Shown here: positions 8,224-48,841 of the stretch, piece by piece
Layout: each line of letters begins with the position of its first letter
Position numbering within the stretch: the stretch's first letter is position 1
Assembly: GCA_005883575.1 (NCBI GenBank)
Contig: VBFH01000023.1
Span: 62,001 to 126,000, forward strand
Origin: Chloroflexota bacterium
Lineage (GTDB): Bacteria > Chloroflexota > Dormibacteria > Dormibacterales > Dormibacteraceae
DNA: 64,000 nucleotides
Direction: 5' to 3'
Notes under the pieces: generated by a model
What the model saw: the letters and a program-made list of their open reading frames with translations, nothing else
The model's database searches: none
What the model was told of the DNA's origin: nothing
Made by a program: the position numbers and the translations under genes

Positions 8224-9363
8224 CTAAATGCGCTTCAGCGCCAGCACCGTTACATCGTCGAACAGCTCCTGATCCCGGGCTCCCTGGGCCAGGATGTCGA
8301 CCATCTCCTGAGCCGTCTGTGCCCGCCGGACCTCGTAAGGGAGCTGCACCTCTTTGGTGGCAAGATCGGGCCGAAGCTCGAGCAGACCGTCGGAAAAAAC
8401 CACCAGCGAATCACCCGGACGCAGGCTCACCTTTCCCGTCACGAACTGGGTGTCCGGGAAGATGCCGATGGGCGCGCTTCGCTCGCCCAGGAGCTCCTGT
8501 GCCGTGGCGCCGCGCAAGATGCGCGCGTGGCCATGGCCTGCATCCACGTAGTCGAGCTCGCCGGACTGAGGGTCGAAGCTGCAGTGAAACACCGTCACGT
8601 ACGCGTGGTTGACCTCCAGGGCGGCCGACATGACCCCGGCCGCCTGCTTGACCCCGGAGTCGAGCGGCGCCACACCGGCCACCCCGCGCAGGGCCGCGCG
8701 GGCGGTGGCCATCATCAGCGACGCCGGCAGCCCCTTGCCCATCACGTCGCCAAGGGTCGCGGTCACGCGCCGGTCAGCGGAGCGATACCAGTCGTAAAAG
8801 TCGCCGCTGATCTCTCGCGCCGCCGTGAAGTGGGCTGCGATCTCGAAACCGTCCGCCTTGAAAGGCGACGCAGGCAGCATGCCCGACTGGAGCTCTGCGG
8901 CGCGGCGCATCTGCTCTGTTCGCTCCGCGACCATGCCCTCCAGCCGGTCCAGACTGGCCCGGTGCTCCAACTCCAGGCTGCGGCGGCGGATGTTGTTGAC
9001 GACCAGGAGATAGAGCTGTGTCGCACCGACCGGCTTGACGTGATAGGCGTACGCCCCGTGCTCGAGCGCCGCCGTGCCGAGCTCGGGATCGTCGACTCCC
9101 GAGATCATCACTACCGCGGTGTCGGGACGCACCGATCTCATCTCCTCGAGCAGACCGTAGCCGGATTCGTCGGGGAGGCGAACGTCGAGGAGCGCAATCG
9201 CGTAGTCCTGAGTCTCGATCAGCTTTCGCGCCTCGGCTCCGCTGAGAGCCACATCGCACTCGAAGCCGCGGCTGCGCAGTGTGCGCGCCATGACGCGCGC
9301 CAGCGGCTCCTCGTCTTCGACCACGAGGACCCGCTGGGACGCCGCAGATGCGCTCACGGCCAT
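8224..9363 (-). CDS. Response regulator with PP2C/SpoIIE phosphatase output (RsbU-like)
   Basis: From ATG 9363 the protein is 379 residues. Residues 10-130 are a receiver (VLVVEDEE, IALLDVRLPDESG, YHVKPVGATQL), followed by a coiled coil (about 135-170). The SpoIIE-type PP2C domain carries GDFYDWYR, TLGDVMGKGLPASLMMA, YVDAGHGHARI and LVVFSDGLLE, supplying the metal-binding aspartates. Enzymes of this design dephosphorylate a STAS anti-anti-sigma protein. Such a STAS protein and an RsbW-like kinase are encoded divergently starting at 9645, which makes partner switching the likely role. The frame extends upstream to 9519 without receiver similarity, so the inner ATG is preferred. Confidence 0.9.
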   Translation of the reverse strand: MAVSASAASQRVLVVEDEEPLARVMARTLRSRGFECDVALSGAEARKLIETQDYAIALLDVRLPDESGYGLLEEMRSVRPDTAVVMISGVDDPELGTAALEHGAYAYHVKPVGATQLYLLVVNNIRRRSLELEHRASLDRLEGMVAERTEQMRRAAELQSGMLPASPFKADGFEIAAHFTAAREISGDFYDWYRSADRRVTATLGDVMGKGLPASLMMATARAALRGVAGVAPLDSGVKQAAGVMSAALEVNHAYVTVFHCSFDPQSGELDYVDAGHGHARILRGATAQELLGERSAPIGIFPDTQFVTGKVSLRPGDSLVVFSDGLLELRPDLATKEVQLPYEVRRAQTAQEMVDILAQGARDQELFDDVTVLALKRI

Positions 9364-9644: not shown

Positions 9645-9986
9645 GTGGCTTTGGAGGTCGAGACCCGACCGTCGGAGAACGGGGTGACCGTGCTGGCGCC
9701 CACCGGGCGGCTCGACGTCGCTGGCGCGCCGGCCCTGAAATACGCGATCGGCGAGGCCGTCAAGAACGGCCCACCAAAGGTCGTGATCGACATGGAGGGG
9801 GTCAGCTTCGTCGACTCGACCGGTCTGGGTTCGGTGATCTCGGCTTTGAAGCAGATCCGAGGCAGCCAGGGCGAGCTTCGCCTGGCGGCTCCGAACCAGC
9901 AAGTGCGCGTCGTCCTCGAGCTGACGACTCTGGACCGGGTGTTCCCCTACTACGCGACAGTCGAGGAAGCCCTCACCGGCTTCTAG
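9645..9986 (+). CDS. STAS-domain anti-sigma factor antagonist (RsbV/SpoIIAA-like)
   Basis: The whole 113-residue protein is one STAS domain: VTVLAPTGRLDVAGAPAL, KVVIDMEGVSFVDSTGLG, then GELRLAAPNQQVRVVLELTTLDRVF. Ser58 in the DST motif is the residue normally phosphorylated by an RsbW-type kinase and dephosphorylated by a SpoIIE phosphatase. Start is GTG 9645. The RsbW-like gene follows three bases after its stop, and the REC-SpoIIE gene is divergent, so all three partners of a switch are within 2.2 kb. No sigma factor is encoded in the window, so the regulated target may be something other than a sigma factor. Confidence 0.92.
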   Translation: MALEVETRPSENGVTVLAPTGRLDVAGAPALKYAIGEAVKNGPPKVVIDMEGVSFVDSTGLGSVISALKQIRGSQGELRLAAPNQQVRVVLELTTLDRVFPYYATVEEALTGF

Positions 9987-9989
9987 CCG

Positions 9990-10409
9990 ATGGGGACTGG
10001 ACACCGGCGATTTGAATTTCATGCCACGTTCAGCGGTCTCGATGAAGGACTCGACATCCTGCACGATTCCGTCGATCGGCTTCGCCGGGCGACCGGCCGC
10101 GGACCCGACGATCGCGCGCTCATGCTCTTCGAGACCGCGCTGGGCGAGATCGGCAGCAACGTCCTCACCCACGGCAAGCCCGCCGGCACCGAACGACCCG
10201 TCGAGTACACGCTGCGCCTCGACGGCCACGGGGTGGTCGCTTCGCTCACCGATTCGGGTCCTCGGGTCCACGAGCACCTGTCCCGGGAGATGCCCGGACA
10301 CGAACACGAGGACGGGCGTGGCCTGGCGATGGCGCGGTCGCTCCTCGACGAGCTCGGCTACGAACGCGACGGCGAGGTCAACCGGTGGAAGCTGGTGAAG
10401 CGCCTATGA
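9990..10409 (+). CDS. RsbW-like serine kinase / anti-sigma factor
   Basis: The 139-residue protein has a GHKL ATPase fold of the HATPase_c_2 kind: N-box ETALGEIGSNVLTHG, G1 box SLTDSGP, and G2 box DGRGLAMARSLLDELGY. Proteins of this size bind a partner (a sigma factor or another effector) and phosphorylate the STAS antagonist, here the gene three bases upstream. ATG 9990 is the only sensible start. Its TGA overlaps the ATG of the next small gene (ATGA). The order phosphatase, STAS, kinase indicates a classical partner switch linked to the downstream Tad locus. Confidence 0.88.
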   Translation: MGTGHRRFEFHATFSGLDEGLDILHDSVDRLRRATGRGPDDRALMLFETALGEIGSNVLTHGKPAGTERPVEYTLRLDGHGVVASLTDSGPRVHEHLSREMPGHEHEDGRGLAMARSLLDELGYERDGEVNRWKLVKRL

Positions 10410-10624
10410 CCGCAGACCATCTCCCCGAAGACCCAGGCCGCGCGCTGATTCACGAATTCCGCAACCTGCTCGCGGTGATCGTCAACTACAGCGAGCTCAT
10501 CGCCGAGGAATCCGGCGACGCCGAGGCGGTCAAGGCCGACATCGAGGAAGTCCGCTCCGCGGCTGAACGCGCGATCGCGCTGACCGAAAAGCTTCCGCGG
10601 CAGCCGCACCCGGCGAATCCATGA
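10406..10624 (+). CDS. Mini-protein consisting of a HisKA-like phosphoacceptor helix pair
   Basis: This 72-residue protein resembles only the dimerisation/phosphoacceptor part of a histidine kinase: ALIHEFRNLLAVIVNYSEL matches the H-box pattern (His followed by acidic Glu, then a hydrophobic helix), and the rest is a second charged helix ending at AIALTEKL. No ATP-binding domain follows. The gene overlaps the RsbW-like ATPase gene by ATGA and precedes a receiver-GGDEF gene, so it could be phosphorylated by an outside ATPase and pass phosphate to the receiver, like an Hpt protein. That role is inference; it could also be a non-catalytic adaptor. Confidence 0.65.
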   Translation: MTADHLPEDPGRALIHEFRNLLAVIVNYSELIAEESGDAEAVKADIEEVRSAAERAIALTEKLPRQPHPANP

Positions 10625-10655: not shown

Positions 10656-11651
10656 GTGACGGTCACTCGACGGCCTGGCACCGACCATCCCCACTCGGCG
10701 CTCATCCATCGCGACATCGCGCTCGTGATCGACGACGACGACCAGGTCCTCCGCCTGGTCAAGCGCGTGCTCGAGCGCGCCGGTTTCGAATGCGTCACCG
10801 TCAACGACGGGCGTGCCGCGCATGAAGCTGCGGTTGAGTGGCGGCCGGACATCATCCTCCTCGACCTGATGCTGGGAGAGACGACCGGCGACCAGATCAT
10901 GTCCGACCTGCGCGAAGACTTTCGGACGCGGCTCATCCCGGTCGTGTTCCTCACCGTGCGCGACTCGCTGAAGGACAAGGTCGAGCACCTGCTTTCTGGC
11001 GCCGACGACTATGTGACCAAACCTTTCATCCCGGAAGAGCTGGTGGCGAGGCTGCGAGCCGTGATGACGCGCTCAACCACCGCGCGAGGCCTGAGCCCAC
11101 TCACCGGGATGAGCGGCAACGCGGACATCTTGCGCGAGATCAGCCACCGGCTGGCTCAGCGCGAGCGCTTTGCGGTGCTCTATCCCGACATCGACGCCTT
11201 CAAGAGCTACAACGACCACTACGGATTTCTCCGTGGCGATGACGTGATCAAGACCCTGGCCACGATCATCCTCGAGGTGCTGGAGGAAAACCACTCCCCG
11301 CAACACTTCGCCGGCCATGTCGGCGGCGACGACTTCGTGATCCTCACCGAGCCGAGCATGGCGGAGATGATCGCGACCGAGATCACCCGCCGATTCGACG
11401 AGGCGATCCCAGCCCTCTACGACCCGACCGACCGCGATCGCGGCTGGATCGAATCCGAGGAACGCAACGGCAACATGCTGCGCACGCCCCTGGTCTCGGT
11501 GTCGATAGGGATCGTGATCGCCGAGCCGGGGAGCTACAGCAGCCCGGCGGCGGTGGCGGCACGTGCGTCCGAGGTCAAAGGCGTGGCCAAGCGCATGCCG
11601 GGTTCCAAGTGGGTGCTCGATCGGCGCCGTCCCCCGGAGCGTTTCAGCTGA
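10656..11651 (+). CDS. Receiver-GGDEF response regulator (probable diguanylate cyclase)
   Basis: The 331-residue protein from GTG 10656 has a receiver domain (IALVIDDDDQVLRLV, phospho-acceptor D70 in IILLDLMLGE, YVTKPFIPEEL). It is followed by a GGDEF domain with YPDIDAFKSYNDHYGFLRGDD and the signature GGDDF at 223-227. GGDDF is a permitted form of the active-site motif, so synthesis of c-di-GMP is likely. No RxxD inhibitory site stands five residues before the signature (the sequence there is PQHFAGHV), so product inhibition at the I-site seems absent. Its stop overlaps the next ATG (TGATG), tying c-di-GMP synthesis to translation of the fused pilus motor. Confidence 0.9.
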   Translation: MTVTRRPGTDHPHSALIHRDIALVIDDDDQVLRLVKRVLERAGFECVTVNDGRAAHEAAVEWRPDIILLDLMLGETTGDQIMSDLREDFRTRLIPVVFLTVRDSLKDKVEHLLSGADDYVTKPFIPEELVARLRAVMTRSTTARGLSPLTGMSGNADILREISHRLAQRERFAVLYPDIDAFKSYNDHYGFLRGDDVIKTLATIILEVLEENHSPQHFAGHVGGDDFVILTEPSMAEMIATEITRRFDEAIPALYDPTDRDRGWIESEERNGNMLRTPLVSVSIGIVIAEPGSYSSPAAVAARASEVKGVAKRMPGSKWVLDRRRPPERFS

Positions 11652-14600
11652 TGCGCCTTTTTTCCAGGGAGAAGGAACGCGAGGAGCGCGGTGCTGGCAT
11701 CCGGCCCGACTCGAACCCGATGAGCGAGGTCAAGACCGAAAGCCCCGCCGGTCTTCCTGACGACGCGCGCGCGCAGTCGCGCATCAAAGTCGTGATTCAC
11801 CGACTCGACGGTGGGCTCGAGGAAGGCGAGTCGGATTCGCGCCGGATCGTGGGCGAGGGATTTCCTGTTTACTCAGCTGCCGACCCGTCGCGTCCACGGC
11901 TCGTCCCGACCAGCGACATCAAATACGTGGTGTTTGGCTCGGTCGACGACCCGGCGCTCGAGCCCGACCCGGGCGACCGGAGCAGCGCGCGAAAGGCTGT
12001 CCTGCGCTTCCGCGACGGCGAGTGGATCGCGGCCTATATCGAGCAAGGCGCCCAACCAGACGGTGACGGCATCGCGATCAAGATCCGCCTGCCGGAGCTG
12101 CAGCGCGTGATCCCTGCCGTGGCGGCCATGCCGTCGCTGCTTGAAACGCAGTTCGTGGAGATGTGGACGGCGCCTGCCGCAATCGACGCGCCGACCTCAG
12201 GCACGCCGCGCCGCCGGCGCTCCGACCTGCTCGAGGCGGCCGCAAGCCAGGGTCGTGACCTGAACAAGCTGGCCAACGAGTTCCGCGACCGGCTCGCGTT
12301 GATCCGCGACGTCGGCTTGACGACCGGTGACACGCACGCGTTCTCGCGCGCAGTGAGGACCCACCTCGACCAATTCCTGCTGGAGGATGCGATCACGCTC
12401 AATGCGCAGGAGAAGTCGGCGCTCGCCGACATCATCCTTCGCGCCGCAGTCGGCTACGGCCCGCTCGACAGTCTCCTCCACGACCGGTCGGTGAGCGAGA
12501 TCATGGTCAACGGCCCGGACCAGGTCTTCATCGAGCGCCGCGGCGTGCTGACCAAGGCGGACATCCGTTTCGAGGATGAGAACCAGCTCCTCGAAACGAT
12601 CCGGCGCATGGTCGCGACCACCGGACGCCACATCGATGGTCTCAACCCGATGGTCGACGCCCGCCTGCCAGACGGGAGCCGCGTCAACGCCATCATCCGG
12701 CCGGCGGCAATCCATGGCGCCGCCCTGACGATCCGTAAGTTCAAGGACGCGGTGCTTGGGATCGAGGACCTCAAGCACGAGGGGAGCCTCAGCCCCGCCA
12801 TGGCCGAGTTTCTGCAAGCCGCGGTCCTCGGGCGCATGAACATCCTCGTCTCGGGCGGTACCGGCTCGGGCAAGACGACGACCCTGAACGTGATCGCGCG
12901 TTTCATCCCGCACAACCAGCGCGTGATCACGATCGAAGACGCGGCCGAGCTGCAGATCGACCACCCGCACGTCATCGCCCTGGAGCATCGTCCGCCCAAC
13001 GTCGAAGGCAAGGGCGAGCTCACCATCCGCCAGCTGCTGCGCAACAGCCTCCGGATGCGCCCTGATCGGATCCTGGTCGGCGAGGTCCGAGGCGCCGAGG
13101 CTCTGGACATGCTGCAGGCGATGAACACCGGCCACGACGGCTCGATGTCCACCATCCACTCCAACTCGGCGCGTGACGCCCTTTCCCGGCTCGAAACGAT
13201 GGTGATGATGGCCTCGATCGACATCCCGTTCGAGGCAGTACGGGCGCAGATCGCGTCTGCGGTCAACCTGATCGTTCACCAGGCGCGCATGCCCGACGGC
13301 CGGCGCAAGGTCGCGCAGATCGCCGAGGTCGTCGGCTATGACTCGAACGGAGCGATCCTGCGCGACATCTTCCTGCTCGGCATGGGCACAGACCTGCGGC
13401 TCGAGTACAACGCCACCGGATACGTTCCCACCGCGCTCGACAAGGCGGCGTTCTATGGCGTCCAGGTCAACCAGGACCTGTTCGACCCGGCCAAGTCGCG
13501 ATACGTCCCGGCCGGCTCGGACAGCATGATGCCGGTCGTCAAGGACCCGCTCATGTCGGGCCAGGGGAAGACTGAGAACGTGGTCCGCCAAGTCGTGGTC
13601 GTGCCATTCAGCTCCGACCGCCCTGGGGAGGCCGCGGCTCGGTCCGCCGCCGCAGCCGGGCCACCGCCGGCGCAGACGCCGGAGATGCAGGAGGAGATGC
13701 GCAAGCTGATCGACGCCGCCCGATCCGCCGTGGCGGACCTGCAAGCTGCCGCTCCGCAGCAGCCAATCGATGCGCCGACGACGTCGTTTGCCCCCCAGGC
13801 TCCGTCCCGCCCGCCGATGGAATATCCGGCCGCCCGAGGGCCGGCCGCTCCCCGCGAGCTCACCACGCCGATGCCGGCCATGTACGCGCCGATGGGCGAC
13901 GGCGGGCACGCCCAGCAGGCACTCGAGGCGGCCACGGCCATGGCCCGCGCCACGACGGCGCTCGGCCAGCTCGCGGCAGCCTCCAGCGGCTTCGGCGGCA
14001 TGCTGCCCACTGTGACCGCGAAGGAAGGGACCGCCGGTCCCGCTGGTGCTTCGCGCCGCATCCAGGCCGTGATCGAAAGCATCATCACCCGCCGCGGCCT
14101 GAGCCTCCGGCTGGCCTCAGCACTGACCCAGGCCTTCGAAGGCGCTGAGCTCAAGTCCAGCGAGCACGCTTCCGAGAACCACATCAGCAAGGATTCCGCC
14201 GGACGGGAGCTGCGTCTCGCCGCCGAATCCGGCCTGCTGCAAACGGTGCGCTACCCGCAGGGCGAAGCAGGGTTCCGCGCGTCCCAGGGCTTGCTGCGGG
14301 AGGTCGCGGAAGGCCTGGGCCAACCGATCAACGCGGCTGCCCCGCTCACCGCGGAGACGATCATCGGGAGCCTTGCGGTGGGCCAGACGGAAGGCACCGT
14401 CACGATCATGTTCACCGACGTCGAAGAGTCGACGCGCCTGCTTTCGACCCGAGGCTTCACGGCCTCGCACGAGATCATGAAGGCGTACGAGACCATCATC
14501 GACGACAAGGTCGCGCTACACGCCGGCCGCCGGATCAAAGGCCTCGGCGATGGTTTCATGATCAGCTTCGGATCCGCCCGGCATGGTGTCGAGTGCGCGC

Positions 14601-16516
14601 TTGACATCCAGCAGGCGATCACCGAGTACAGCAAGCAAAATCCAGAGCGCAAGCTGCGCATCCGGATCGGCCTCAACACCGGCGAGGTCGTGGAGGAAGG
14701 CGGCGATATCTTCGGCGCGGCGGTCAACGTCGCGGCGCGCGTCGCGGGCAAGGCGAAAGGCGGCGAGATCCTCGTCTCCGAGATCGTGCGCCAGCTGGTC
14801 GGGCCGATCGCGGAGGTGAAGTTCGACTTCCGCGGCCGGTACAAGCTCAAGGGGTTTCCCGACCGCTGGCGCTTGCATGAGGTCTCGCCGGGAGAGGTGA
14901 AGGAATCACCTCACGTTCTCGCGTCAGCGGACGGGTTCGTGGATCGCGAGCAGGAACGACACGACATCCGGATGGTCCTCGACCGCGCAGGCACCGGCAA
15001 CGGATCGCTCCTCTTCTTGACAGGCGCGCCCGGCATCGGCGCAACGCGCCTGGCCTCCGAGGTCGCCGGCGAGGCGGCTGCGAAGGGCTGGATGGTGCTC
15101 AGCGGACGATGCCTCGAGAACTACGACGAGCCGTACGCCCCGTTCCGAAGCATCCTCGGGGCGGCGGTGTCCGCGACGACGGCGAAGAACCTGCTCGAGG
15201 CGGCCGGCCACCACGGACCTCTCCTCGCCCCGCTCGCGCCCAACCTCCGCCAGAAGCTGCGGGGCATGGCCGCAGGCCACGATTTCCCCGCCGACAAGAT
15301 CCGCGAGGAGCTCTTCAAGTCGGTGCACGAATTTCTCGCCGGTGTGCAGGGCTCCAAGCCGCTCCTGATCGTGCTCGACGATCTCCAGTGGGCCGACGAG
15401 GCGACCGTGATGCTCCTGCGCGACCTGGCGCTCCGCATCAACGGAAGCCGGATGGTGGTGCTCGGAACGTACTGGGACTCCGAGCTCGACTCGGGCCGGC
15501 CATTCGCGACCGCGCTCTCGCGCCTGCTGAGGCGCCGCCGGGCCCAGCGCATCACTCTGGGCAGGCTGTCGGACCACGACGTCGAGAGGGTCGTGGCGGG
15601 CCTGACGGAGACGCCGCTCACCCCGGTCGAGCTCATCGGCATTCAGGCCGCAACCGAAGGCAACCCACTTTTTGTCGAGCACTCCCTGCGCTATCTCGCG
15701 GAGTCCGAGAGCATGCTCGGCGGCACGGCACGTAGCCAGGCGAGCTTCACCGAAGAGGACCTCGAGCTTGCCCAGAGCGTGCGCGGCCTGATCGGCAGGC
15801 GCATCCAGCGCCTCAGCGAGCCGGCCCAGCGCATGCTCGTAGCCGCGGGCGTCATCGGGCGCGACTTCGACATCGCGCTGCTCGAGGCGTTCGGCGAGCT
15901 CGCGGGCCACGAGCTCCGCGACGCCCTGGACGAGGCCACGCGCGGACACTTCCTGGTCGCAGTGCCCAAGGACAGCTATCGATTCGCGCACGACCTGGTC
16001 CGCCAGCGCGTGCTAGCGGTCCTCCCGCTGCCGCGTCTGCAGGCGTATCACCTCGCGGTCGCAGACACTCTGGAGCGCGTCTACGGCAAGGCCGCGCGCG
16101 ACCACGCGGCCGAGATCGGCCACCACCTCTACCAGGCAGGCACCGCCGCCGACCCGGCACGCACCGCCGCGTTCCTCGGTCACGCGGCGACCAACGCGCT
16201 CGCGGTCGGCGCCTTCGAAGAGGTGCTGCGTCTGGTCGATTCGACGCTTCAGCTCCTGCCTGCCGACAGCACCCGCGAGCGGGCAGAAGCCTTGAGCACC
16301 CGGGCGGACGCGCTCTGGGGTTTGGGCAGGGTCGAAGACGCGAAGGCCGCCTGGCGCGGTGCGATCCAGCGCTACGACGAGCTGAGCGACGGCAAGGCCG
16401 CGGGTGCGCTGCACCGCCGGATCGCGCGCCTCGAGTCGCATGTTGACGGACACGAGACGAACGGCGCTGCGCCCGCAGACGTCGACGCACCCCGCCCGGT
16501 CGAAATTCGCAGCTGA
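11651..16516 (+). CDS. Fusion: CpaF/TadA pilus ATPase + class III adenylate cyclase + AAA/helical-repeat module
   Basis: One frame of 1621 residues from ATG 11651. Residues 40-190 hold two beta-rich modules (KVVIHRLDGGLEEGESDSRR, ARKAVLRFRDGEWIAAYIE) resembling small DUF6982-like domains. Residues 200-620 are a complete secretion ATPase: Walker A GGTGSGKTTT (about 402-411), Walker B RILVGEVRG (about 472), His box MSTIHSNS. A Pro/Ala-rich linker and an unassigned helical region follow (620-905). Residues 915-1075 are a class III cyclase with metal ligands D923 and D967, adenine-type K963 and D1019, transition-state N1026 and R1030. Residues 1100-1621 resemble the AAA_16 plus TPR module of cyclase-linked ATPases, with Walker B VLDDLQWADE, but Walker A reads GAPGIGATR. 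It should power Tad pilus assembly and make cAMP. No stop or strong internal start separates the parts. Confidence 0.93.
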   Translation: MRLFSREKEREERGAGIRPDSNPMSEVKTESPAGLPDDARAQSRIKVVIHRLDGGLEEGESDSRRIVGEGFPVYSAADPSRPRLVPTSDIKYVVFGSVDDPALEPDPGDRSSARKAVLRFRDGEWIAAYIEQGAQPDGDGIAIKIRLPELQRVIPAVAAMPSLLETQFVEMWTAPAAIDAPTSGTPRRRRSDLLEAAASQGRDLNKLANEFRDRLALIRDVGLTTGDTHAFSRAVRTHLDQFLLEDAITLNAQEKSALADIILRAAVGYGPLDSLLHDRSVSEIMVNGPDQVFIERRGVLTKADIRFEDENQLLETIRRMVATTGRHIDGLNPMVDARLPDGSRVNAIIRPAAIHGAALTIRKFKDAVLGIEDLKHEGSLSPAMAEFLQAAVLGRMNILVSGGTGSGKTTTLNVIARFIPHNQRVITIEDAAELQIDHPHVIALEHRPPNVEGKGELTIRQLLRNSLRMRPDRILVGEVRGAEALDMLQAMNTGHDGSMSTIHSNSARDALSRLETMVMMASIDIPFEAVRAQIASAVNLIVHQARMPDGRRKVAQIAEVVGYDSNGAILRDIFLLGMGTDLRLEYNATGYVPTALDKAAFYGVQVNQDLFDPAKSRYVPAGSDSMMPVVKDPLMSGQGKTENVVRQVVVVPFSSDRPGEAAARSAAAAGPPPAQTPEMQEEMRKLIDAARSAVADLQAAAPQQPIDAPTTSFAPQAPSRPPMEYPAARGPAAPRELTTPMPAMYAPMGDGGHAQQALEAATAMARATTALGQLAAASSGFGGMLPTVTAKEGTAGPAGASRRIQAVIESIITRRGLSLRLASALTQAFEGAELKSSEHASENHISKDSAGRELRLAAESGLLQTVRYPQGEAGFRASQGLLREVAEGLGQPINAAAPLTAETIIGSLAVGQTEGTVTIMFTDVEESTRLLSTRGFTASHEIMKAYETIIDDKVALHAGRRIKGLGDGFMISFGSARHGVECALDIQQAITEYSKQNPERKLRIRIGLNTGEVVEEGGDIFGAAVNVAARVAGKAKGGEILVSEIVRQLVGPIAEVKFDFRGRYKLKGFPDRWRLHEVSPGEVKESPHVLASADGFVDREQERHDIRMVLDRAGTGNGSLLFLTGAPGIGATRLASEVAGEAAAKGWMVLSGRCLENYDEPYAPFRSILGAAVSATTAKNLLEAAGHHGPLLAPLAPNLRQKLRGMAAGHDFPADKIREELFKSVHEFLAGVQGSKPLLIVLDDLQWADEATVMLLRDLALRINGSRMVVLGTYWDSELDSGRPFATALSRLLRRRRAQRITLGRLSDHDVERVVAGLTETPLTPVELIGIQAATEGNPLFVEHSLRYLAESESMLGGTARSQASFTEEDLELAQSVRGLIGRRIQRLSEPAQRMLVAAGVIGRDFDIALLEAFGELAGHELRDALDEATRGHFLVAVPKDSYRFAHDLVRQRVLAVLPLPRLQAYHLAVADTLERVYGKAARDHAAEIGHHLYQAGTAADPARTAAFLGHAATNALAVGAFEEVLRLVDSTLQLLPADSTRERAEALSTRADALWGLGRVEDAKAAWRGAIQRYDELSDGKAAGALHRRIARLESHVDGHETNGAAPADVDAPRPVEIRS

Positions 16517-16725: not shown

Positions 16726-18729
16726 CTAGCTGATCAGGCGGGCCGCCGGAGGCACCGGCGCGAACTGCGCGTTGTACTTGAAGCTGGGTAGAGTCCCGGT
16801 GAACGTGAACGACGCCGCGATGATGCCACCGGTGCCCGCCGCCTCGGAAACGTAGGGCGAGGTCACCGCGACCGAGGCTGATGGCGCGTAGACGAGTCCG
16901 ATATAGGCGCTGTTCCCGGAAGCTCCGATCGAGTTCGAGCAAGCATTGGCAGCGGGCTCGTAGACACTGATCCAGTTGTACTGGTAGCCGCTGAAGACAT
17001 AGGTGTCGCTGGTGTTGCTCGCGCTCAGACAACCGCCCGCGGGATAGTAGAGCTCGACCGCGCCGGGCGTGACCGGGCCTGGGCAAGTGATGTAGGCGTC
17101 GCCAACGGATTTGCAGTTGTTCTCGTTAGCGCGGTCGCCGGCCGCGCCCGTGCCCCGCGCGGGGTTCTGATTGGGTAAGCCGGCGGCCAAGGGCGCCCGT
17201 TCCGGGTCGGGCGGGTATGCGCCTGTGGTTCCTGGGGCGGCGGCGGCGTTTGGGGCGAAAGGCGAAGCCAGCTGTGAGGACAGCGTGACCTGCTCGTTGC
17301 CAAGCGTGCATCCCGCGCCGGTCGTCAGAGGGCACGGGTTGGTGTTGGTGTTGGTCACCGAGCCGGTGACCGGAACGTTGGTGGCCAGCCCGAACGGCCC
17401 TCCGCATCCAGCGGGTGGCGGTGCTGCATAGATGTTGTACGAGGTCGCGCCGGGCACATTGCTGATCGCGACCTGGACATCGTCGAAGTGGTTGTTCAGG
17501 TTCACCGAGCGACACATGGACGGCGCGCTTTCGCGCGTGTAGGAGACACCGTTGTAAGTATCGGTACGCACCGAGGTGATCACGAACGACCAGATGCCGA
17601 ACGGCAGGTCGCGCGGCCCGGTGAGTTTGGTCACCTGAAACGCACCCGCACATCCGACGCCGTTGGAGTCCCAGAACTGGTTTGACGCCACCTGGTTGTT
17701 CGATGCATCCGGCTCGTCGGGAGGTTTCAGCTCGTTGCTCACGAAATCGGTTGTGTCTTGAGTGCCGGCCAGAAAGTCATAGACGCCGCCGCTGAGGAAC
17801 CAGCAGTGCGCGCCGTTCAGGATCGGCAGCGAGGCGTAGACGCCGGGCAGGAGGACGACGTTGCTGCTGCCGATGCCCTGGCTGCCACCGGTCACACTGG
17901 GCGCGGCGTAGCCAGGATCCGCCAGCCGAAAACCCGAACGGGTCGCTCCCGCAACGTCCGGGTAGGTGCAGGGGGTCGTTGCTCCGCTCGGGTAGCAAAG
18001 GTTGGAGACCGAACCCGCAACAGTCGACTGGCAGCGGGCGAACAGGTCTCCGGCCACGGCCAAGCTGCCGCCCGCGACGGAGACGCCTCCGTTGGACACG
18101 ATGTCACCGGTGACGCCGAGCGTCCCGGCTCCGTTGATGCTGATCGCCGAACCTGCAGCTCCTCCGCAGCCCGACTGGTTGAGCGCACCGACGGCCGGTG
18201 TGAGCCGCTGATTGTTCACTTCCCCGTTCCCCGTCGCGCCGAGGGTGGGCGTTGCCCCGTTCGTGAGCACGCGTCCGAACTGGAGTTGGAGGGTCCGGGT
18301 CGCGGAGATCGTGAAACGACTTCCCTGGGCCCCGGCCACCCGAGCGACATCGGTCAGCACAGTGCCGTCGGAGTAGGTGCAGGTCACGGTCCACGCGCTC
18401 GCGCCGGGTGTTCCATAGCCGGAGCAGGCGGGCGCGTTGTAGAGCCTCAGGTTGGAGCCGAAGATCGCAGTCGCCGCCTGCTCGGCGGAGACGTAGCTGC
18501 CGGTCTGCTGGAGCTTGTCCGCCGCCGCAAGCGCCGCGGCGTCGATGGCGGCCTGCAGGTCACGGCGTACGGCGTAGGCGCGCGAGCCGTCGATTGCGAT
18601 CGCGACCATCCCGATGAGCACCGTCAGCATCAGCGCGATGATCACGATCGCCTGCCCAGACTGTGCCTGTAGGCATAGCCCTCTTCCCGCAGGGGAGAGG
18701 GCTCCAGGGTGAGCTGCGCCCTTGGCCAT
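16726..18729 (-). CDS. TadG-like Tad pilus protein
   Basis: From ATG 18729 the protein is 667 residues. After about 20 residues comes SGQAIVIIALMLTVLIGMVAIAIDGSRAYAVRRDLQAAIDAAALAAA, the N-terminal membrane anchor and pseudopilin-like helix of the TadG/TadE group. The remainder is a large Gly/Ser/Asn/Thr-rich extracytoplasmic part with many cysteines (GCGGAAGS, CTYPDVAG, CWFLSGGVYDF). It should be an exported minor pilin or pilus-associated adhesin-like protein. Residues 9-18 are encoded by a palindromic repeat (18677-18703). It follows two TadE-like genes on the same strand; the nearest start is five bases past the preceding stop. Confidence 0.82.
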   Translation of the reverse strand: MAKGAAHPGALSPAGRGLCLQAQSGQAIVIIALMLTVLIGMVAIAIDGSRAYAVRRDLQAAIDAAALAAADKLQQTGSYVSAEQAATAIFGSNLRLYNAPACSGYGTPGASAWTVTCTYSDGTVLTDVARVAGAQGSRFTISATRTLQLQFGRVLTNGATPTLGATGNGEVNNQRLTPAVGALNQSGCGGAAGSAISINGAGTLGVTGDIVSNGGVSVAGGSLAVAGDLFARCQSTVAGSVSNLCYPSGATTPCTYPDVAGATRSGFRLADPGYAAPSVTGGSQGIGSSNVVLLPGVYASLPILNGAHCWFLSGGVYDFLAGTQDTTDFVSNELKPPDEPDASNNQVASNQFWDSNGVGCAGAFQVTKLTGPRDLPFGIWSFVITSVRTDTYNGVSYTRESAPSMCRSVNLNNHFDDVQVAISNVPGATSYNIYAAPPPAGCGGPFGLATNVPVTGSVTNTNTNPCPLTTGAGCTLGNEQVTLSSQLASPFAPNAAAAPGTTGAYPPDPERAPLAAGLPNQNPARGTGAAGDRANENNCKSVGDAYITCPGPVTPGAVELYYPAGGCLSASNTSDTYVFSGYQYNWISVYEPAANACSNSIGASGNSAYIGLVYAPSASVAVTSPYVSEAAGTGGIIAASFTFTGTLPSFKYNAQFAPVPPAARLIS
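18677..18703. repeat. REP-like palindrome inside the TadG-like coding start
   Basis: AGCCCTCTTCCC (18677-18688) and GGGGAGAGGGCT (18692-18703) form a 12-pair stem with one mismatch around GCA, followed by CCAGGGTGAG. This GGGAGAGGGCT..AGGGTGAG wording is that of common extragenic palindromes in high-GC bacteria, yet it lies inside the reading frame just before the membrane anchor. Confidence 0.55.
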
Positions 18730-18734
18730 CCCGG

Positions 18735-19265
18735 CTAGTACTCCGTCCGGTAAACCGCGGCCGCCGAGATCACGACGTGGCCTGCGGTCGCTTGAGCCAC
18801 GATCGGTGTGATAAGCACCAGGTTGAAGCGCAGGGTCACCTGCAGCTGGTCGTTGCCGCTCGCGGGATTGACCGCGCTGCAGCCGCCGGCTGCGGTGGCT
18901 GCATACTCCCCGCCAGGTGCGTTTGGAGGTGGAGACGCCTCGACGGTGGCCGGAGGGGCCGGCTCGGTGACGTAGAGCCAGGCTGCGTTCTGCGGCGGCG
19001 TGGACGAAGTCAGGGGACCTTGCGGGCACGGTTCGGTCACGGGGTTGCCGAGCATCTGGGCGGTGACTGCGCTGAGCACGTCAGCGTTTGTCGGCAGCTG
19101 GTTTGAAGCCCGGACCGCGTCCCGCGCGCCCTCGCGGGCCGCGTGGTTCAAGGTGTCGTAGTAGAAGATCGCGCGCCCGATGTCGATCACGCCGAACAGC
19201 ATCAGCAAGAGCACCGGGGAGACCAGCGCAAACTCGATCAGGGCCTGCGACCGCTGCTGCTTCAA
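18735..19265 (-). CDS. TadE-like minor pilin (first of two)
   Basis: From TTG 19265 the protein is 176 residues and opens LKQQRSQALIEFALVSPVLLLMLFGVIDIGRAIFYYDTLNHAAREGARDAVR, the typical short positive leader, a glutamate at position 5 of the hydrophobic helix and the TadE helix. The C-terminal part is a Pro/Thr-rich exported domain. The frame is open to a TTG at 19418 that overlaps the previous gene's stop (AATTGA), but the added 51 residues coincide with a string of hairpins (19290-19392) and look non-coding, so the inner start is chosen. It should be exported and processed as a pseudopilin; no TadV-type peptidase is in the window. Confidence 0.78.
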   Translation of the reverse strand: MKQQRSQALIEFALVSPVLLLMLFGVIDIGRAIFYYDTLNHAAREGARDAVRASNQLPTNADVLSAVTAQMLGNPVTEPCPQGPLTSSTPPQNAAWLYVTEPAPPATVEASPPPNAPGGEYAATAAGGCSAVNPASGNDQLQVTLRFNLVLITPIVAQATAGHVVISAAAVYRTEY

Positions 19266-19339
19266 CTTCCCCGGACCGTGATCAGTCGCCGGGAAGGACT
19301 TTCGTCCTCCCCCGCGGGCCCTCTCCTGTTGCGCACAAC

Positions 19340-19392
19340 GCCTGGTGAGGCCAGGCAAGAATCGCTGGATGGCGGCCGGGATGAACCCGGCC
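19340..19392. repeat. Two adjacent hairpins between the TadE-like genes
   Basis: GCCTGG-tgagg-CCAGGC (19340-19356) and GGCCGGG-atgaa-CCCGGCC (19374-19392) are perfect stems of six and seven pairs. The second is nearly identical to the hairpin at 23112-23132 and belongs to the CCGG-N-ATGAA-N-CCGG group also seen at 16531-16555. GGAC-tttc-GTCC lies just beyond, near 19293. Confidence 0.55.
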
Positions 19393-19414
19393 TTGGCACG
19401 GCGCTCGTCTCTTT

Positions 19415-19987
19415 TCAATTTCCCTGCACCGTCATGTGCTGGTTAGCGGCGACCTGGAACACGCCGAACTGCGAGCGGACCAGCGGCGTCAGCGGGCCGT
19501 ACGTGTACAGCACGATCACGTTCACATCGAGCTGGCCCTGGTTTGTCGCCGGGCTCGTGAAGTCGAGGCCGGGCGTGTTGTTGTAGCAGATGTAGAGCCA
19601 CGGCTGGTTGGCGGTGGGCGGGTAGGCGGCAGACCCGTAGGGCGGGTTGTGCACGCCATTGCCGTCGGTGGGGTTGGGACAGGTCGTGGTCGGGTTCTTG
19701 AGCACCGAGGCTGGAAGTGAGATGGTCGCCAGCTCGCTGTCCACGGCTGCCTTGATCTCCGCGTCGTATAGGTAGGGGTGCGAGCGGCCGGCGGCGTCGA
19801 ACCACGCCCCGTGCCTCGCACCCTCGCGCGCGGCGTTCGACAGGGCCTCGGAAACGTAGATCGAGCGCCCGATGTCGACCAGCCCGCCGACGAGCAAGAG
19901 CAGGACGACCGAGGACACGGCAAACTCCACGAGGGACTGCCCCGTCTGGGCGCGCCGAGCGCCGAAAAGTACGTTTCTGAGTGTCAT
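19415..19987 (-). CDS. TadE-like minor pilin (second of two)
   Basis: From ATG 19987 this is a 190-residue protein. RAQTGQSLVEFAVSSVVLLLLVGGLVDIGRSIYVSEAL is a TadE helix with the conserved glutamate, preceded by a positive leader (MTLRNVLFGARR), and NAAREGARHG follows as in its neighbour. The exported part has a cysteine pair region (CPNPTDGNG, LYICYNN). It is the first gene of the minus-strand pseudopilin operon and diverges from the CpaB gene. A GTG 18 bases upstream (20005) is a possible alternative start that would nearly touch the divergent gene. Confidence 0.82.
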   Translation of the reverse strand: MTLRNVLFGARRAQTGQSLVEFAVSSVVLLLLVGGLVDIGRSIYVSEALSNAAREGARHGAWFDAAGRSHPYLYDAEIKAAVDSELATISLPASVLKNPTTTCPNPTDGNGVHNPPYGSAAYPPTANQPWLYICYNNTPGLDFTSPATNQGQLDVNVIVLYTYGPLTPLVRSQFGVFQVAANQHMTVQGN

Positions 19988-20034: not shown

Positions 20035-20796
20035 TTGCGGACGTTTAGTGCAATTACTTCGCGCCGGCCATTCACGCTGCTTGGCATCCTCCTCGCGCTC
20101 CTCGTCATCGTCGCTTTCGTTCTCGTTGCACTTAACGCCAGCACCGCCGGCAGCAGTCAGTACCAGACCGTGGTGGTGGCCAACAAGGTCCTGCAGCCTC
20201 GAATCCCGATCACGGCCGACTCTCTGACGACGTCCAGCCTGCCCGTCCCCGGGACATATCCGAAGGTTTACTTCGACAGGATCCAGGACGTCCAGGGCAT
20301 GGTGCCACTGGTCACGATCCCAGAGGGCCAGGCGGTGGTCGCGAACGACGTGGCCAAGGCCAGCCAGGCGCTGGGTTCTCAGTCCGAGTACCTACCGGTT
20401 CCTAAGGGCTACGTCGCGTTGACGATTCCGACCAGCGAGCAGCAGGGCGTCGCCGACTACATCCAGCCCGGCGACTACATCTCGGTGATCGCCACTGTGT
20501 CGAGCGCGGGCAAGGTCGCCTCGCTGACGATCTTCACCCAGCTCCATGTGATCGAGGTCGGCACCCGGACCGCGAACGGCGGCGCCAACGCCACAAGCCT
20601 GATCGTCGTCGTCACCCAGTGCCAGGCCGAGGTCATCACCTGGTTTTTGGCCTACGCATCGCTCAAGTACACACTGGAGTCCTACCACGACTATCAGCCA
20701 GGCGAGCAGGCACCCGATCCCAAGTGTCCGAGCGTCGGCGACGCAAAAGGCGTGACCCTGACGGTCGTCAAGGCCGCCTTCCCCGGCCTGTTTTAG
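20035..20796 (+). CDS. cpaB: CpaB/RcpC-like Flp pilus assembly protein
   Basis: About 253 residues from TTG 20035. The protein begins with a positive stretch and one membrane helix (RPFTLLGILLALLVIVAFVLVAL). It then has an SAF domain (YQTVVVANKVLQPRIPITADSL... and IPEGQAVVANDVA), and a second domain with VPKGYVALTIPTSEQQGVADYIQPGDYISVIATV, the hallmark of CpaB/RcpC. CpaB stabilises the Tad secretin channel in the periplasm or cell envelope. A GTG at 19981 is in frame but would overlap the divergent TadE start, so the inner TTG is preferred. TadB and TadC follow on the same strand, ten bases on. Confidence 0.85.
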   Translation: MRTFSAITSRRPFTLLGILLALLVIVAFVLVALNASTAGSSQYQTVVVANKVLQPRIPITADSLTTSSLPVPGTYPKVYFDRIQDVQGMVPLVTIPEGQAVVANDVAKASQALGSQSEYLPVPKGYVALTIPTSEQQGVADYIQPGDYISVIATVSSAGKVASLTIFTQLHVIEVGTRTANGGANATSLIVVVTQCQAEVITWFLAYASLKYTLESYHDYQPGEQAPDPKCPSVGDAKGVTLTVVKAAFPGLF

Positions 20797-20806
20797 GAAC
20801 CGAGGC

Positions 20807-21751
20807 ATGAATCTTCCGCCCGAGACGCTCGTTGCCGTTCCGATGGCGGCGGCCATCTTCGTTTTCTTCTGGGCGCTCGACAAGGTTCGCAAGGAACGGG
20901 TGTCCGCACCCACCGAGGCGATGCCGCCGCGGGCCACGCCTCGCGAGCTGGTCGACCGCCTGCTCAAGCCGGCGGCGGAAAATCTGAGTCAGCGACGCAG
21001 GGTGCAGGGCAAGCCGACGCTCAGCGAAGACCTGGCGCGAGCTGGGCTCAACATCACGCCGCCCGAATACCTTCTGATCCGGATCGGCGCGGTCGGGCTC
21101 GGCGCCCTGATCGGCTTATTCCGGTTTGGGTTCACGCTCGGCCCGGTCATCCTCGGTGTGATCGGCTTCGTGCTTCCGCCGCTGGTGATCGCCTACCTGC
21201 AGCGACGGCGCCAGCAGCAGTTCAACGAGCAGCTCGCGAGCATGCTCCAGCTGCTCTCCAACTCGCTGAAGACGGGCTACGCGATCGACCGCGCCCTTGA
21301 GACCGTCGCCGCGAAATCGCAGCCGCCGGTGTCGACGGAGTTCGAGCGAGTCACTACCGAGATCACGCTTGGCACCTCGGTCGAGGACGCATTGAGCGCG
21401 CTGCTGCTGCGCATCAACAGTCCCGACCTCGAGTTCATCGTGACCGCGATCCTGCTTCACGTCCGCGTCGGCGGCAACCTGGCCGAGGTGCTCGACAACA
21501 TCTCGGATACGCTGCGCGACCGCCTACAGACGAAGCGCGACATGAGCGTACTCACCGCGCAGTCCCGGGCGTCGGCGAGCATCATCACGGGCCTTCCCAT
21601 CCTTCTCGCGCTCGGCCTCTACGTCTTCGTCCCCGGCTACTACGCGCCGATGACCAGCACATGGGTCGGCTACGCCATGCTCGGCTTCGCCGGTTTCATG
21701 ATCCTGATCGGCAACCTGCTGATCCAGCGCATGACCGCGCTCGAGGCTTAG
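20807..21751 (+). CDS. tadB: TadB-like type II secretion F-domain membrane protein
   Basis: The 314-residue protein has an N-terminal helix (VAVPMAAAIFVFFWALDKV), a cytosolic stretch, and helices around IGLFRFGFTLGPVILGVIGFVLPPLVIAYL. The T2SS-F domain has LASMLQLLSNSLKTGYAIDRALETVA and AILLHVRVGGNLAEVLDNISDTLRDR. Two C-terminal helices follow (IITGLPILLALGLYVFV, MLGFAGFMILIGNLLI). TadB is the inner-membrane platform that the CpaF motor drives. Its stop is directly followed by the TTG of tadC, so the two are translated together. Confidence 0.93.
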   Translation: MNLPPETLVAVPMAAAIFVFFWALDKVRKERVSAPTEAMPPRATPRELVDRLLKPAAENLSQRRRVQGKPTLSEDLARAGLNITPPEYLLIRIGAVGLGALIGLFRFGFTLGPVILGVIGFVLPPLVIAYLQRRRQQQFNEQLASMLQLLSNSLKTGYAIDRALETVAAKSQPPVSTEFERVTTEITLGTSVEDALSALLLRINSPDLEFIVTAILLHVRVGGNLAEVLDNISDTLRDRLQTKRDMSVLTAQSRASASIITGLPILLALGLYVFVPGYYAPMTSTWVGYAMLGFAGFMILIGNLLIQRMTALEA

Positions 21752-22624
21752 TTGTTCCAGATCGCGGTTGCTGCGGGCGTCATCTGCGGGGCCATCGTGG
21801 TGGCTTACTTCATCGCCATCGACCAGTTCCGGGCCGCGACCGCCAATGGCGGTCATGTGACCACACCGGCGCGCCCGTTCGTCAAGCAGCTCGAGTCGCT
21901 GCTGCGCCCGGTCTCGCACCTCCCTGCTCGGACGGCGGGCCAGTTGCGCCAGAAGCTGAGCCAGGCCGGAAACCCTGGCAACCTGACCCCGGCCGGATTC
22001 CAGGCCGTGCGCTACAGCCTGGCGGCTCTGCTCGCGATCGCTGGACTGGCGCTCGGCCTTTTGGTCCCGCTCGGCTTACCGGACATCGTGGCCGCTCCCC
22101 TTTCCGGCGGCGTTCTGGCGGTTGCCGGCTTCCTGGCGCCAAGCGTATGGCTCGGGCAGCTCATCTCCCAGCGCAAGCGCCAGATACAGCGTTCGCTCGC
22201 CGAGGCGACCGATCTGCTCACCCTGGTGGTTGAGTCAGGCATGAGCCTCGACGAAGGGCTGCTCAGCATCACCGAGCGCTTCCACAACGCCCTCGGCGAT
22301 GAGATCGGCAAGGTGCTGCGCGAGATCCGGCTCGGCAGGCCTCGAATGGCCGCGCTCGAGCACATGGCGGACACGGCCGGCGTGGCGGACCTTCATCACC
22401 TCGTAGAGTCGATCGTGCAGTCAGACCAGATGGGCGTGCCGATCGCGCGCCTGCTTCGGGTGCAGGCGACCGAGATGCGTCGCCGGCAGCGGCAGGGCGC
22501 TCAGGAGCGGGCGGCACAGGCCTCATCGCGCATGGTGTTTCCGATGGTGGGGTGCATTTTTCCGGTGTTGTGGGTCGTCCTGCTCGGACCCGCCATCATC
22601 CAGGTGTTGCAGTCACTCAAGTGA
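21752..22624 (+). CDS. tadC: TadC-like type II secretion F-domain membrane protein
   Basis: The 290-residue partner platform protein starts at TTG 21752, the base after tadB's TAG. It has an N-terminal helix, paired helices around LLAIAGLALGLLVPLGL, and the F-domain with LAEATDLLTLVVESGMSLDEGLLSITERF and HLVESIVQSDQMGVPIARLLRVQATEMRRRQRQGAQE. A final helix follows (MVFPMVGCIFPVLWVVLLGPAII). TadB and TadC together form the pilus assembly platform. The MerR-like gene overlaps its last bases (GTGA). Confidence 0.92.
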   Translation: MFQIAVAAGVICGAIVVAYFIAIDQFRAATANGGHVTTPARPFVKQLESLLRPVSHLPARTAGQLRQKLSQAGNPGNLTPAGFQAVRYSLAALLAIAGLALGLLVPLGLPDIVAAPLSGGVLAVAGFLAPSVWLGQLISQRKRQIQRSLAEATDLLTLVVESGMSLDEGLLSITERFHNALGDEIGKVLREIRLGRPRMAALEHMADTAGVADLHHLVESIVQSDQMGVPIARLLRVQATEMRRRQRQGAQERAAQASSRMVFPMVGCIFPVLWVVLLGPAIIQVLQSLK

Positions 22625-42909: not shown

Positions 42910-43530
42910 GTGGAGTCCAGGCGAGAAACCATCCTTGCCTTTCTGAAGATGCGCGGCCAGGCGTCGCTGGCCGAGGTCGCTGCGCATCTCGAGGTTTCCA
43001 AGCAGGGCGCGCTTCGTCACCTCGAGGCGCTGGAGGCGTCAGGCCTCGCCACCGTCGCCCCGGCCGACCTTCACCGCCGCGGACGCCCCGAACACGTCTA
43101 CAAGCTCACGCCCGCCGCCGGCGAGCACTTCCCCGACGGACATCGGGAGCTCACGGCCGAGCTCGTCGACTTCATGACCAATGAGCAACTGAAGCAGTTC
43201 TTCGAGCGCCGCGCGGCGCGGCTGGAGAGGGAATACGCCCGGCGATTGGCGGGCCTAGACTTTGAATCGCGCGTCCGCGAGCTGGCCCGGCTCGCCACCG
43301 AGCACGGCCACATGGCCGAGGTGGTCGAGGTTGGGGATGGCGCGCTCGCCATCCGCCACTGCAACTGCCCCATCCAGGATGTCGCGGCCCGCACCGGGCT
43401 CCCATGCGTCAACGAGCACCAGATGTACGAGCGGCTTTTGGGCACGGAGGTGTCGCGCACGACGTGGGTGGCCGAGGCCGCGGACGATTGCACATACGTG
43501 ATGAAGGAGAAGGGAGAGACAGTTGGCTGA
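42910..43530 (+). CDS. sufR: SufR-like Fe-S-binding transcriptional repressor of the suf operon
   Basis: The 206-residue protein has an N-terminal winged helix (ILAFLKMRGQASLAEVAAHLEVSKQGALRHLEALEASG, then RGRPEHVYKLT wing). Its C-terminal cluster site has C151, C153, C166 and C194 (HCNCPIQDVAA, GLPCVNEHQMYERLLG, DDCTYVM). SufR binds an Fe-S cluster and represses suf genes when Fe-S supply is sufficient. GTG 42910 is close behind a candidate promoter. Its stop overlaps the sufC TTG, so it is autoregulated with the operon. Confidence 0.93.
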   Translation: MESRRETILAFLKMRGQASLAEVAAHLEVSKQGALRHLEALEASGLATVAPADLHRRGRPEHVYKLTPAAGEHFPDGHRELTAELVDFMTNEQLKQFFERRAARLEREYARRLAGLDFESRVRELARLATEHGHMAEVVEVGDGALAIRHCNCPIQDVAARTGLPCVNEHQMYERLLGTEVSRTTWVAEAADDCTYVMKEKGETVG

Positions 43531-44305
43531 TTTTGAGATCAAAGACCTTCGCGCGAGCGTGGAGGGACGGCAGATCCTGAAGGGCGTTTCGCTCGCCATC
43601 TCCATGGGCGAGGTCCACGCGGTGATGGGACCGAACGGATCGGGCAAGTCGACGCTGTCACACACGTTGATGGGTCATCCCGGCTACACGGTGGACGGCG
43701 GCTCGGTCCTCTTCAAGGGCCAGAACGTCCTCGAGCTGGAGCCCGACGAGCGAGCGCGCCTGGGCATGTTCCTGGCGTTCCAGTACCCGGTGGTCGTGCC
43801 CGGGATCTCGATGGCCAACTTCCTGCGCACCGCTTTGAACTCCAAGCGCGGATATGACGGAAAGGACAAGTCGAAGCAGGTCACACCGAAGGAGTTCCGC
43901 TCGATGATGAAGAGCGAGCTCGAGGTCCTGCACATGGACGACTCATTTCTGCCTCGATACATCAACGACGGTTTTTCAGGTGGCGAGAAGAAGCGCGCCG
44001 AGATCCTGCAGATGGCGATGCTCAAGCCGGAGATCGCGATCCTCGACGAGACCGACTCGGGTCTTGATATCGACTCCATCAAGTTCGTCGCCGAGGCAGT
44101 GAACCGCATGCGCGGTCCCGAGCTTGGGATCCTGATCATCACCCACTACACGCGGGTCCTTGAGTTCATCAAGCCCGACTACGTGCACGTGCTGGTTGAC
44201 GGCAAGTTCGTGCTCTCGGGCGGGCCTGAGGTCGCGGAACGACTGGAGAACACGGGTTACGCGGAGTGGGGTCACGCCGAAGAAGAACCGAAGGAGGTTG
44301 CCTGA
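43523..44305 (+). CDS. sufC: Fe-S assembly ATPase SufC
   Basis: The 260-residue ABC-type ATPase has Walker [12 protein letters not shown]-loop [11 protein letters not shown], signature [12 protein letters not shown], Walker [14 protein letters not shown] and switch His in IITHYTR. In the SufBC2D scaffold it powers conformational change during cluster assembly. TTG 43523 overlaps the end of sufR and is preceded by a GGAGAAGGGAGAG ribosome-binding site. Its stop overlaps the sufB ATG. Confidence 0.96.
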
Positions 44306-45714: not shown

Positions 45715-45716
45715 CG

Positions 45717-46910: not shown

Positions 46911-47217
46911 CCATCGGGTCGCCTCGGTCGAAGAGATTCCGCAAGACTCGATGAAGCGCGTCGAAGCCGGCGGCACGCCCGTGTGCCTCGCCCACGCCGA
47001 GGACGGCAACTTCTACGCCCTCAACGACATCTGCACGCACGAGGAGTTCTTCCTCTCCGACGGCGAGCTATGGGGCTTGGACGTCGAGTGCCCGCAGCAT
47101 GGATCACGGTTCAACCTGGAGACCGGCAAGGTCACCGGTCTCCCGGCAGTGATCCCGGCGAAGACGTACCCAGTGAAGCTCGAAGGCGACGAAATCTACG
47201 TCGAGGTGCCCGACTGA
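46903..47217 (+). CDS. Rieske-type [2Fe-2S] ferredoxin
   Basis: The 104-residue protein (TTG 46903) has both Rieske boxes: CTHEEFFLSDG and CPQHGSRFNL, giving two Cys and two His ligands. Size and lack of a membrane helix match soluble non-heme dioxygenase-type ferredoxins. Lying between sufD and sufS with overlap, it probably supplies electrons for cluster assembly, a common arrangement in suf operons of Actinobacteria and relatives. Confidence 0.94.
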   Translation: MASHRVASVEEIPQDSMKRVEAGGTPVCLAHAEDGNFYALNDICTHEEFFLSDGELWGLDVECPQHGSRFNLETGKVTGLPAVIPAKTYPVKLEGDEIYVEVPD

Positions 47218-47219
47218 GC

Positions 47220-48832: not shown

Positions 48833-48841
48833 TAGATAGGT

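Follow-up and report, generated by a model that had tools for sequence, protein, structure and literature searches.

A Tad pilus motor ATPase and a predicted class III adenylyl cyclase joined in one reading frame of Dormibacterota

The stretch of DNA analysed here, hereafter the window, comprises 64,000 nucleotides from a Chloroflexota bacterium (assembly GCA_005883575.1, contig VBFH01000023.1, positions 62,001 to 126,000). At 11651-16516 of its forward strand lies a single uninterrupted frame of 1621 codons in which a motor ATPase of the CpaF/TadA type, known from adhesive Tad pili, is followed by a predicted class III adenylyl cyclase. The chain opens with two SH3/Tudor-like barrels and the CpaF/TadA ATPase; a variable linker and a predicted winged-helix domain lead on to the cyclase, and the chain closes with an AAA_16 module followed by helical repeats (Table 1). 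A previous sequence-only reading of the window had described such a fused architecture, and its CpaF, cyclase, AAA_16 and repeat parts were all recovered, whereas the winged-helix-like domain (residues 798-888) and the N-terminal tandem barrels (44-170) had been missed, as had the upstream signalling operon and the cyclic nucleotide-binding CpaE proteins. The gene limits given in that reading hold insofar as the frame is open, but the start may lie further downstream. The ATG at 11651 overlaps the stop codon of the preceding REC-GGDEF gene as TGATG; many orthologs begin at the position equivalent to ATG 11720, and as most orthologs lack any equivalent of residues 1-23 and constraint over residues 1-40 is slight, the alignment suggests that ATG 11720 may be the true start.

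The fusion is kept in 30 Dormibacterota genomes, all of one family of uncultured soil bacteria, at 72-85% identity. These provide 22 distinct full-length orthologs, defined as frames of more than 1500 codons (G102, with a 31-base run of N, is among them), while in the other eight the gene runs off a contig end or is broken (G001, G010, G012, G014, G015, G095, G098 and G103). Neither a stop nor a frameshift occurs over 13560-14400, where an unbroken frame had been expected, in any of the 22. Nonsynonymous differences (pN) are far fewer than synonymous ones (pS) in the motor, winged helix, cyclase and repeats; constraint is relaxed only over residues 1-40 and 721-760, and pN/pS is high only in 721-760 and at the termini. 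A scan of 84,980 species genomes for the winged-helix-cyclase pattern returned 27 loci, all in Chloroflexi or Dormibacterota bins, from the naming series CF_, palsa_, Pasture, S960 and 13_1_40CM, which were taken as separate projects. Within a phylum sample of 151 genomes the fusion was confined to this one family. A fragment 80-88% identical to it (L071, C220) in a genome of another family, G083, lies on a contig of 3.7 kb that contains N runs and is probably misbinned. Among the matches listed by a plasmid tblastn that extended to 5000 records only CpaF was found, and none of these covered 80% of the query.

The T2SSE family (PF00437) is matched at residues 268-544 with E=1.2e-67, far above the curated Pfam cut-off, and residues 248-605 align to the solved CpaF of Caulobacter with E=7.3e-101. 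The Walker A, Walker B, Asp box and His box motifs are identical in 22/22 orthologs, and the motor is the most conserved part of the protein, with pN of about 0.02-0.03 across them. The claim of a complete CpaF/TadA ATPase was therefore sustained. The NCBIfam model TIGR03819 (TadA family conjugal transfer-associated ATPase) gave 326.8 bits against a cut-off of 373.15, and on these family scores the fusion is classed as a CpaF/TadA-type T2SSE ATPase outside this narrower subfamily. Hexamer formation and pilus assembly by the fusion are predicted by analogy.

The catalytic residues of the cyclase were likewise found intact. Guanylate_cyc (PF00211) is matched at residues 912-1068 with E=6.4e-21, far above its Pfam cut-off, the Mycobacterium avium cyclase Ma1120 in the PDB is matched with E=1.5e-32, and the AlphaFold2 model superposes on 4wp8 at a TM-score of 0.93 (by target length). 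The residues for metal (D923, D967), adenine (K963, D1019) and the transition state (N1026, R1030), all of which the sequence-only reading had noted, are invariant in 22/22 orthologs. Because the substrate-specifying Lys and Asp are the same as in the ATP-specific Ma1120, cAMP is the likely product; cyclase activity, with ATP as substrate, would follow from these residues.

The AAA_16 module presents the opposite pattern. Its family match is firm (PF13191, E=6.1e-26; 92.3 bits against a cut-off of 32.6), and in this respect the AAA_16-like domain proposed previously stands, but its P-loop is degenerate: position 1131 of Walker A (15017-15058) is never lysine, being A, T, M, G or V in 22/22 orthologs. 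As the Walker A lysine is lost throughout, the module is unlikely to be a normal ATPase and is probably best regarded as AAA_16-derived. With this lysine lost in every ortholog and the adjacent cyclase site invariant, the added module seems to have been remodelled and not simply retained as a passenger. Between motor and cyclase, residues 798-888 form a conserved, predicted winged-helix-like domain; no Pfam or PDB sequence match was found for this region, and the fold is called from the AlphaFold2 model. For the N-terminal barrels, Foldseek ranks tandem Tudor domains and Sm/Hfq folds first, with no hit reaching E<=0.001, and a match of the N-terminal region to DUF6982 was weak and below cut-off.

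Table 1. Features of the fusion gene, its neighbours and the cyclic nucleotide monophosphate (cNMP)-binding CpaE genes of the same genome. Positions are those of the window unless a locus handle is given.
Feature	Position	Strand	Basis or remark
Fusion gene	11651..16516	+	1621 codons, 1598 from ATG 11720; open frame and 22 distinct full-length orthologs
N-terminal tandem SH3/Tudor/Sm-like barrels, residues 44-170	11780..12160	+	AlphaFold2 model, predicted local distance difference test (pLDDT) about 92 over barrels
CpaF/TadA motor ATPase, residues 235-615	12353..13495	+	PF00437; solved Caulobacter CpaF
CpaF motifs	Walker A 12854-12880; Asp box 12923-12952; Walker B 13058-13093; His box 13127-13168	+	all present
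Linker, residues 616-784	13496..14002	+	two conserved helical patches flank variable Pro/Ala-rich stretch 721-760 (ortholog alignment)
Predicted winged-helix-like domain, residues 798-888	14042..14314	+	H-H-H-strand-strand pattern in AlphaFold2 model; also in unfused sister proteins L027, L069, L070
Fusion junction	14339..14385	+	unfused orthologs diverge or end just past helix TAETIIGSL, residues about 897-905 (fused vs unfused alignment)
Class III adenylyl cyclase catalytic domain, residues 911-1085	14381..14905	+	PF00211, Ma1120 match, model superposition
AAA_16 (STAND-like) module, residues 1096-1262	14936..15436	+	PF13191
C-terminal helical repeats, weak TPR, residues 1266-1600	15446..16450	+	TPR_2 E 0.006, below cut-off; conserved in orthologs
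REC-SpoIIE phosphatase	8224..9363	-	PF07228 1.5e-36, PF00072 2.5e-21; syntenic
STAS protein, HATPase_c_2 anti-sigma-like kinase, HisKA stub	9684..10624	+	Pfam; syntenic in fused loci
REC-GGDEF protein	10656..11651	+	PF00072 7.8e-23, PF00990 3.5e-16; TGATG overlap with fusion start
TadG-like and two TadE-like minor pilin genes	16726..19918	-	PF13400 3.8e-10; PF07811 5.5e-17 and 1.8e-07
CpaB/RcpC, TadB, TadC (two T2SSF platform proteins)	20035..22624	+	TIGR03177 above cut-off; PF16976; PF00482 3.3e-19 and 5.9e-16
cNMP-CpaE, C27 type	L149:2688-3965 (G000 C27)		canonical pocket; orphan gene
cNMP-CpaE, C93 type	L081:38-1294		beside Tad locus; pocket Arg -> Gln
cNMP-CpaE, C86 type	L080:11051-12352		beside Tad locus; cassette degenerate

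The gene neighbourhood bears out the proposed link to a Tad pilus, as do the orthologs and the phylogeny. Fused loci with enough flanking sequence share one order: REC-SpoIIE (on the opposite strand), STAS, anti-sigma-like kinase, HisKA stub, REC-GGDEF and the fusion, and beyond it TadG, TadE and TadE on the other strand, CpaB, TadB and then, where the stretch reaches it, TadC. In every such locus the Tad genes adjoin the fusion. The upstream signalling genes (STAS, anti-sigma-like kinase, REC-GGDEF) were not found at unfused loci. An ortholog of REC-GGDEF is present in 30 of the 110 genomes of the class, namely in 29 of the 30 with the fusion and in G100, a congener of the fused G098 and G099 in which no piece of the fusion was found, and in none of the four unfused genomes; this association comes from related genomes, which are not independent events. 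Since the motif of REC-GGDEF reads GGDDF, its activity is uncertain.

The same family includes four genomes (G021, G107, G108 and G109) with unfused barrel-CpaF proteins of 855-979 codons, whose motors are 77-78% identical to that of the fusion. In G021, G108 and G109 the protein runs on through the winged-helix domain and then ends or passes into an unrelated tail; in G107 this region is masked by N. The unfused gene occupies the same Tad locus in G021 and G109, with TadG, TadE, TadE and CpaB, and in G021 TadB and TadC are seen as well. These DUF6982-like-CpaF-winged-helix proteins are therefore like the fusion in barrels, motor, winged helix (apart from the masked G107) and, for G021 and G109, in locus, but end without a cyclase and lack the REC-GGDEF operon. 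No cyclase gene lies beside CpaF at the unfused loci of G021 and G109, which rules out two separate neighbouring genes. Such a pair, on which the fusion claim could have foundered, was never encountered: the relatives that lack the fusion carry a shorter protein, and no cyclase adjoins it. On the CpaF tree the fused and contig-cut rows form one clade (100/96), to which the unfused clade is sister (97/95); the tree counts five label changes since four contig-cut fusions carry the unfused label, and all four lie inside the fused clade. A single addition of the cyclase-AAA-repeat part would be the simplest reading of this tree, a single loss in the sister clade being a possible alternative. The cyclase-less CpaF proteins with a C-terminal winged-helix-like domain (L027:7673-10237 (-), L070:4656-7592 and L069:3-2888 (-)) are odd in themselves; a winged helix on a pilus motor may be a DNA- or protein-binding domain.

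Comparison with known systems indicates that the parts are familiar and that the combination is new to the literature searched. CpaF/TadA of Caulobacter shares the motor core, all motifs and the type of gene neighbourhood (CpaB, TadB/C, TadE/G), but stops after the motor (the model is built to residue 502), whereas the fusion adds 1000 residues and the N-terminal barrels. A stand-alone cyclase-AAA_16-TPR protein of G044 (L112:1465-4755, 1096 aa) is collinear with the fusion, at 37% identity over 675 residues; it is free of a motor, and the reverse of the fusion in that its AAA Walker A is intact while the adenine-binding Lys of its cyclase is Ala. The fusion itself also matches TIGR03903 (TOMM kinase/cyclase), below cut-off. 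The class III adenylyl cyclases Ma1120 and Rv1900c (LipJ) share the catalytic fold and ATP-type residues, and differ in their N-terminal partners. Second messengers are also tied to pilus motors in the Pil-Chp/CyaB system of Pseudomonas and in MshEN pilus ATPases. In the former, however, the cyclase is a separate protein, and in the latter the motor is only a receptor of cyclic di-GMP (c-di-GMP), while here the cyclase is within the motor chain. In a literature search that covered few subscription papers and included no systematic database search for T2SSE-cyclase fusions elsewhere, no protein joining a nucleotide cyclase to a secretion or pilus ATPase was found. What is described is a CpaF motor with an added, conserved and remodelled cyclase module, and does not amount to a new type of system.

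The fusion bears on how pilus activity or contact with a surface is turned into a second-messenger signal, a task shared out in Pseudomonas among a series of separate proteins. With motor ATPase and cyclase covalently linked, it offers a minimal system, in which coupling between ATP turnover and cAMP could be measured on one purified protein and for which the unfused sister proteins are a natural comparison; cells that carry the fusion may produce a chemical signal directly at the pilus base.

The reading that we favour, and regard as about evenly poised, is that of a bifunctional Tad pilus motor with some coupling between motor and cyclase, making cAMP at the pilus base. Gating of cyclase dimerisation by the motor, or cAMP as a report of pilus activity, had both been suggested from the sequence and are plausible. 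The CpaF ring would drive the Tad pilus through the neighbouring TadB/TadC platform, each subunit bearing a cyclase on the flexible linker and the winged-helix-like adaptor. Because class III cyclases function as dimers and the CpaF ring of Caulobacter is hexameric, a hexamer here would place three cyclase dimers beside the pilus base. Their output would be set by ring assembly, possibly by shape changes of the ATP cycle, and also by binding of ligands or partners to the N-terminal barrels and to the degenerate AAA/helical-repeat tail; information on pilus or surface status would then be carried by cAMP to its receptors, including the cNMP-binding CpaE/TadZ protein with an intact pocket. In a stronger version, which is put forward tentatively, the ring would be an obligate scaffold that pairs six cyclases into three active dimers, assembly or ATP turnover in the course of extension or retraction would directly set cAMP synthesis, and cNMP-binding TadZ/CpaE would close a feedback loop on pilus assembly; one chain would then be both mechanical motor and second-messenger synthase. 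The CpaF of Caulobacter is a C2-symmetric hexamer (PMC11300603), and CpaF hexamers drive both extension and retraction (PMC11300603, PMC11656802).

Candidate receptors were sought in the source bin (G000, Dormibacterota, 3.6 Mb in 127 contigs), to which all genome-wide counts refer. Three of its nine PF00027 matches belong to CpaE/TadZ-like ATPases that begin with a cNMP-binding domain, and such proteins occur in 24 of 41 relatives, all of the same family. In the C27 type the phosphate-binding cassette FGEMALISEETRTASV (FGEMAL...RTASV), with its Glu and Arg, is identical in the 10/10 orthologs examined, and this protein would be a further, independent link between cAMP and the Tad proteins of these bacteria. 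The C93 and C86 types were rejected as cAMP receptors, the pocket being altered in the first by loss of its arginine and in the second throughout the cassette. In both other Tad loci a HEAT-repeat-like protein, recognised by eye, lies between cNMP-CpaE and CpaF (L081:1291-2196 and L080:10184-11020 (-)).

Several observations weigh against a motor-coupled cyclase that signals to these receptors. The cNMP-CpaE proteins are also present in G003, G021 and G023, genomes without a detected fusion, and are thus not specific to the system; the canonical one (C27) is an orphan gene, while those beside the two other Tad loci have the altered pockets just described. With 13 other Guanylate_cyc matches in the genome, global cAMP need not stem from the fusion. 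Finally, the linker is long and variable over 721-760, which argues against a rigid coupling of ring and cyclase.

The same Pro/Ala-rich linker would suit a cyclase that is only localised, being tethered at the pilus base, where the AAA/repeat tail, the barrels or the partner-switching and REC-GGDEF proteins encoded upstream would set its activity and the state of the motor would not. This explanation is possible though on balance doubtful. It would agree with a tail that resembles that of stand-alone cyclases and came with the cyclase, and with an upstream signalling operon that tracks the fusion. However, the absence of the P-loop lysine makes the usual nucleotide-switch mode of such a tail unlikely, and the strong conservation of the winged helix immediately preceding the cyclase would hint that this domain transmits. 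Sequence cannot separate motor-gated activity from simple tethering. Control in the reverse direction, with the cyclase part and tail binding ATP or partners to regulate extension or retraction and cAMP as a minor product, is unlikely: the strong conservation of the motor would fit it, as would the control exerted on pilus ATPases in other systems by second-messenger domains at the N-terminus, for example MshEN (PMC4624772, PMC5013675), but mere binding would not need all six invariant catalytic residues, the transition-state Asn and Arg among them. It is very improbable that the fusion is off pilus duty, as a signalling scaffold or DNA-binding regulator with a CpaF core, leaving pilus work to the CpaF copies C71, C86, C88 and C93. 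The genome does have five other CpaF-type matches and three loci with adjoining TadB/TadC, and the winged-helix-like domain would accord with a regulator; the fusion nevertheless has a complete locus of its own (CpaB, TadB, TadC, TadE, TadG), kept in all fused genomes with enough flank and in unfused sisters, and every motor motif is invariant. An assembly artefact, frameshift or chimeric contig can be dismissed, since the same frame and junction recur in 22 distinct sequences from several projects with conserved synteny, even if all genomes seen are metagenome bins.

A second long CpaF frame of the genome (C86, L003) proved to be an ordinary CpaF of about 557 codons. Elsewhere in the window, a gene run at 43523-49512 resembles by eye a SUF iron-sulfur cluster operon, and two adjacent genes at 52604-54843 both appear citrate synthase-like, judged by eye from the start of their translations.

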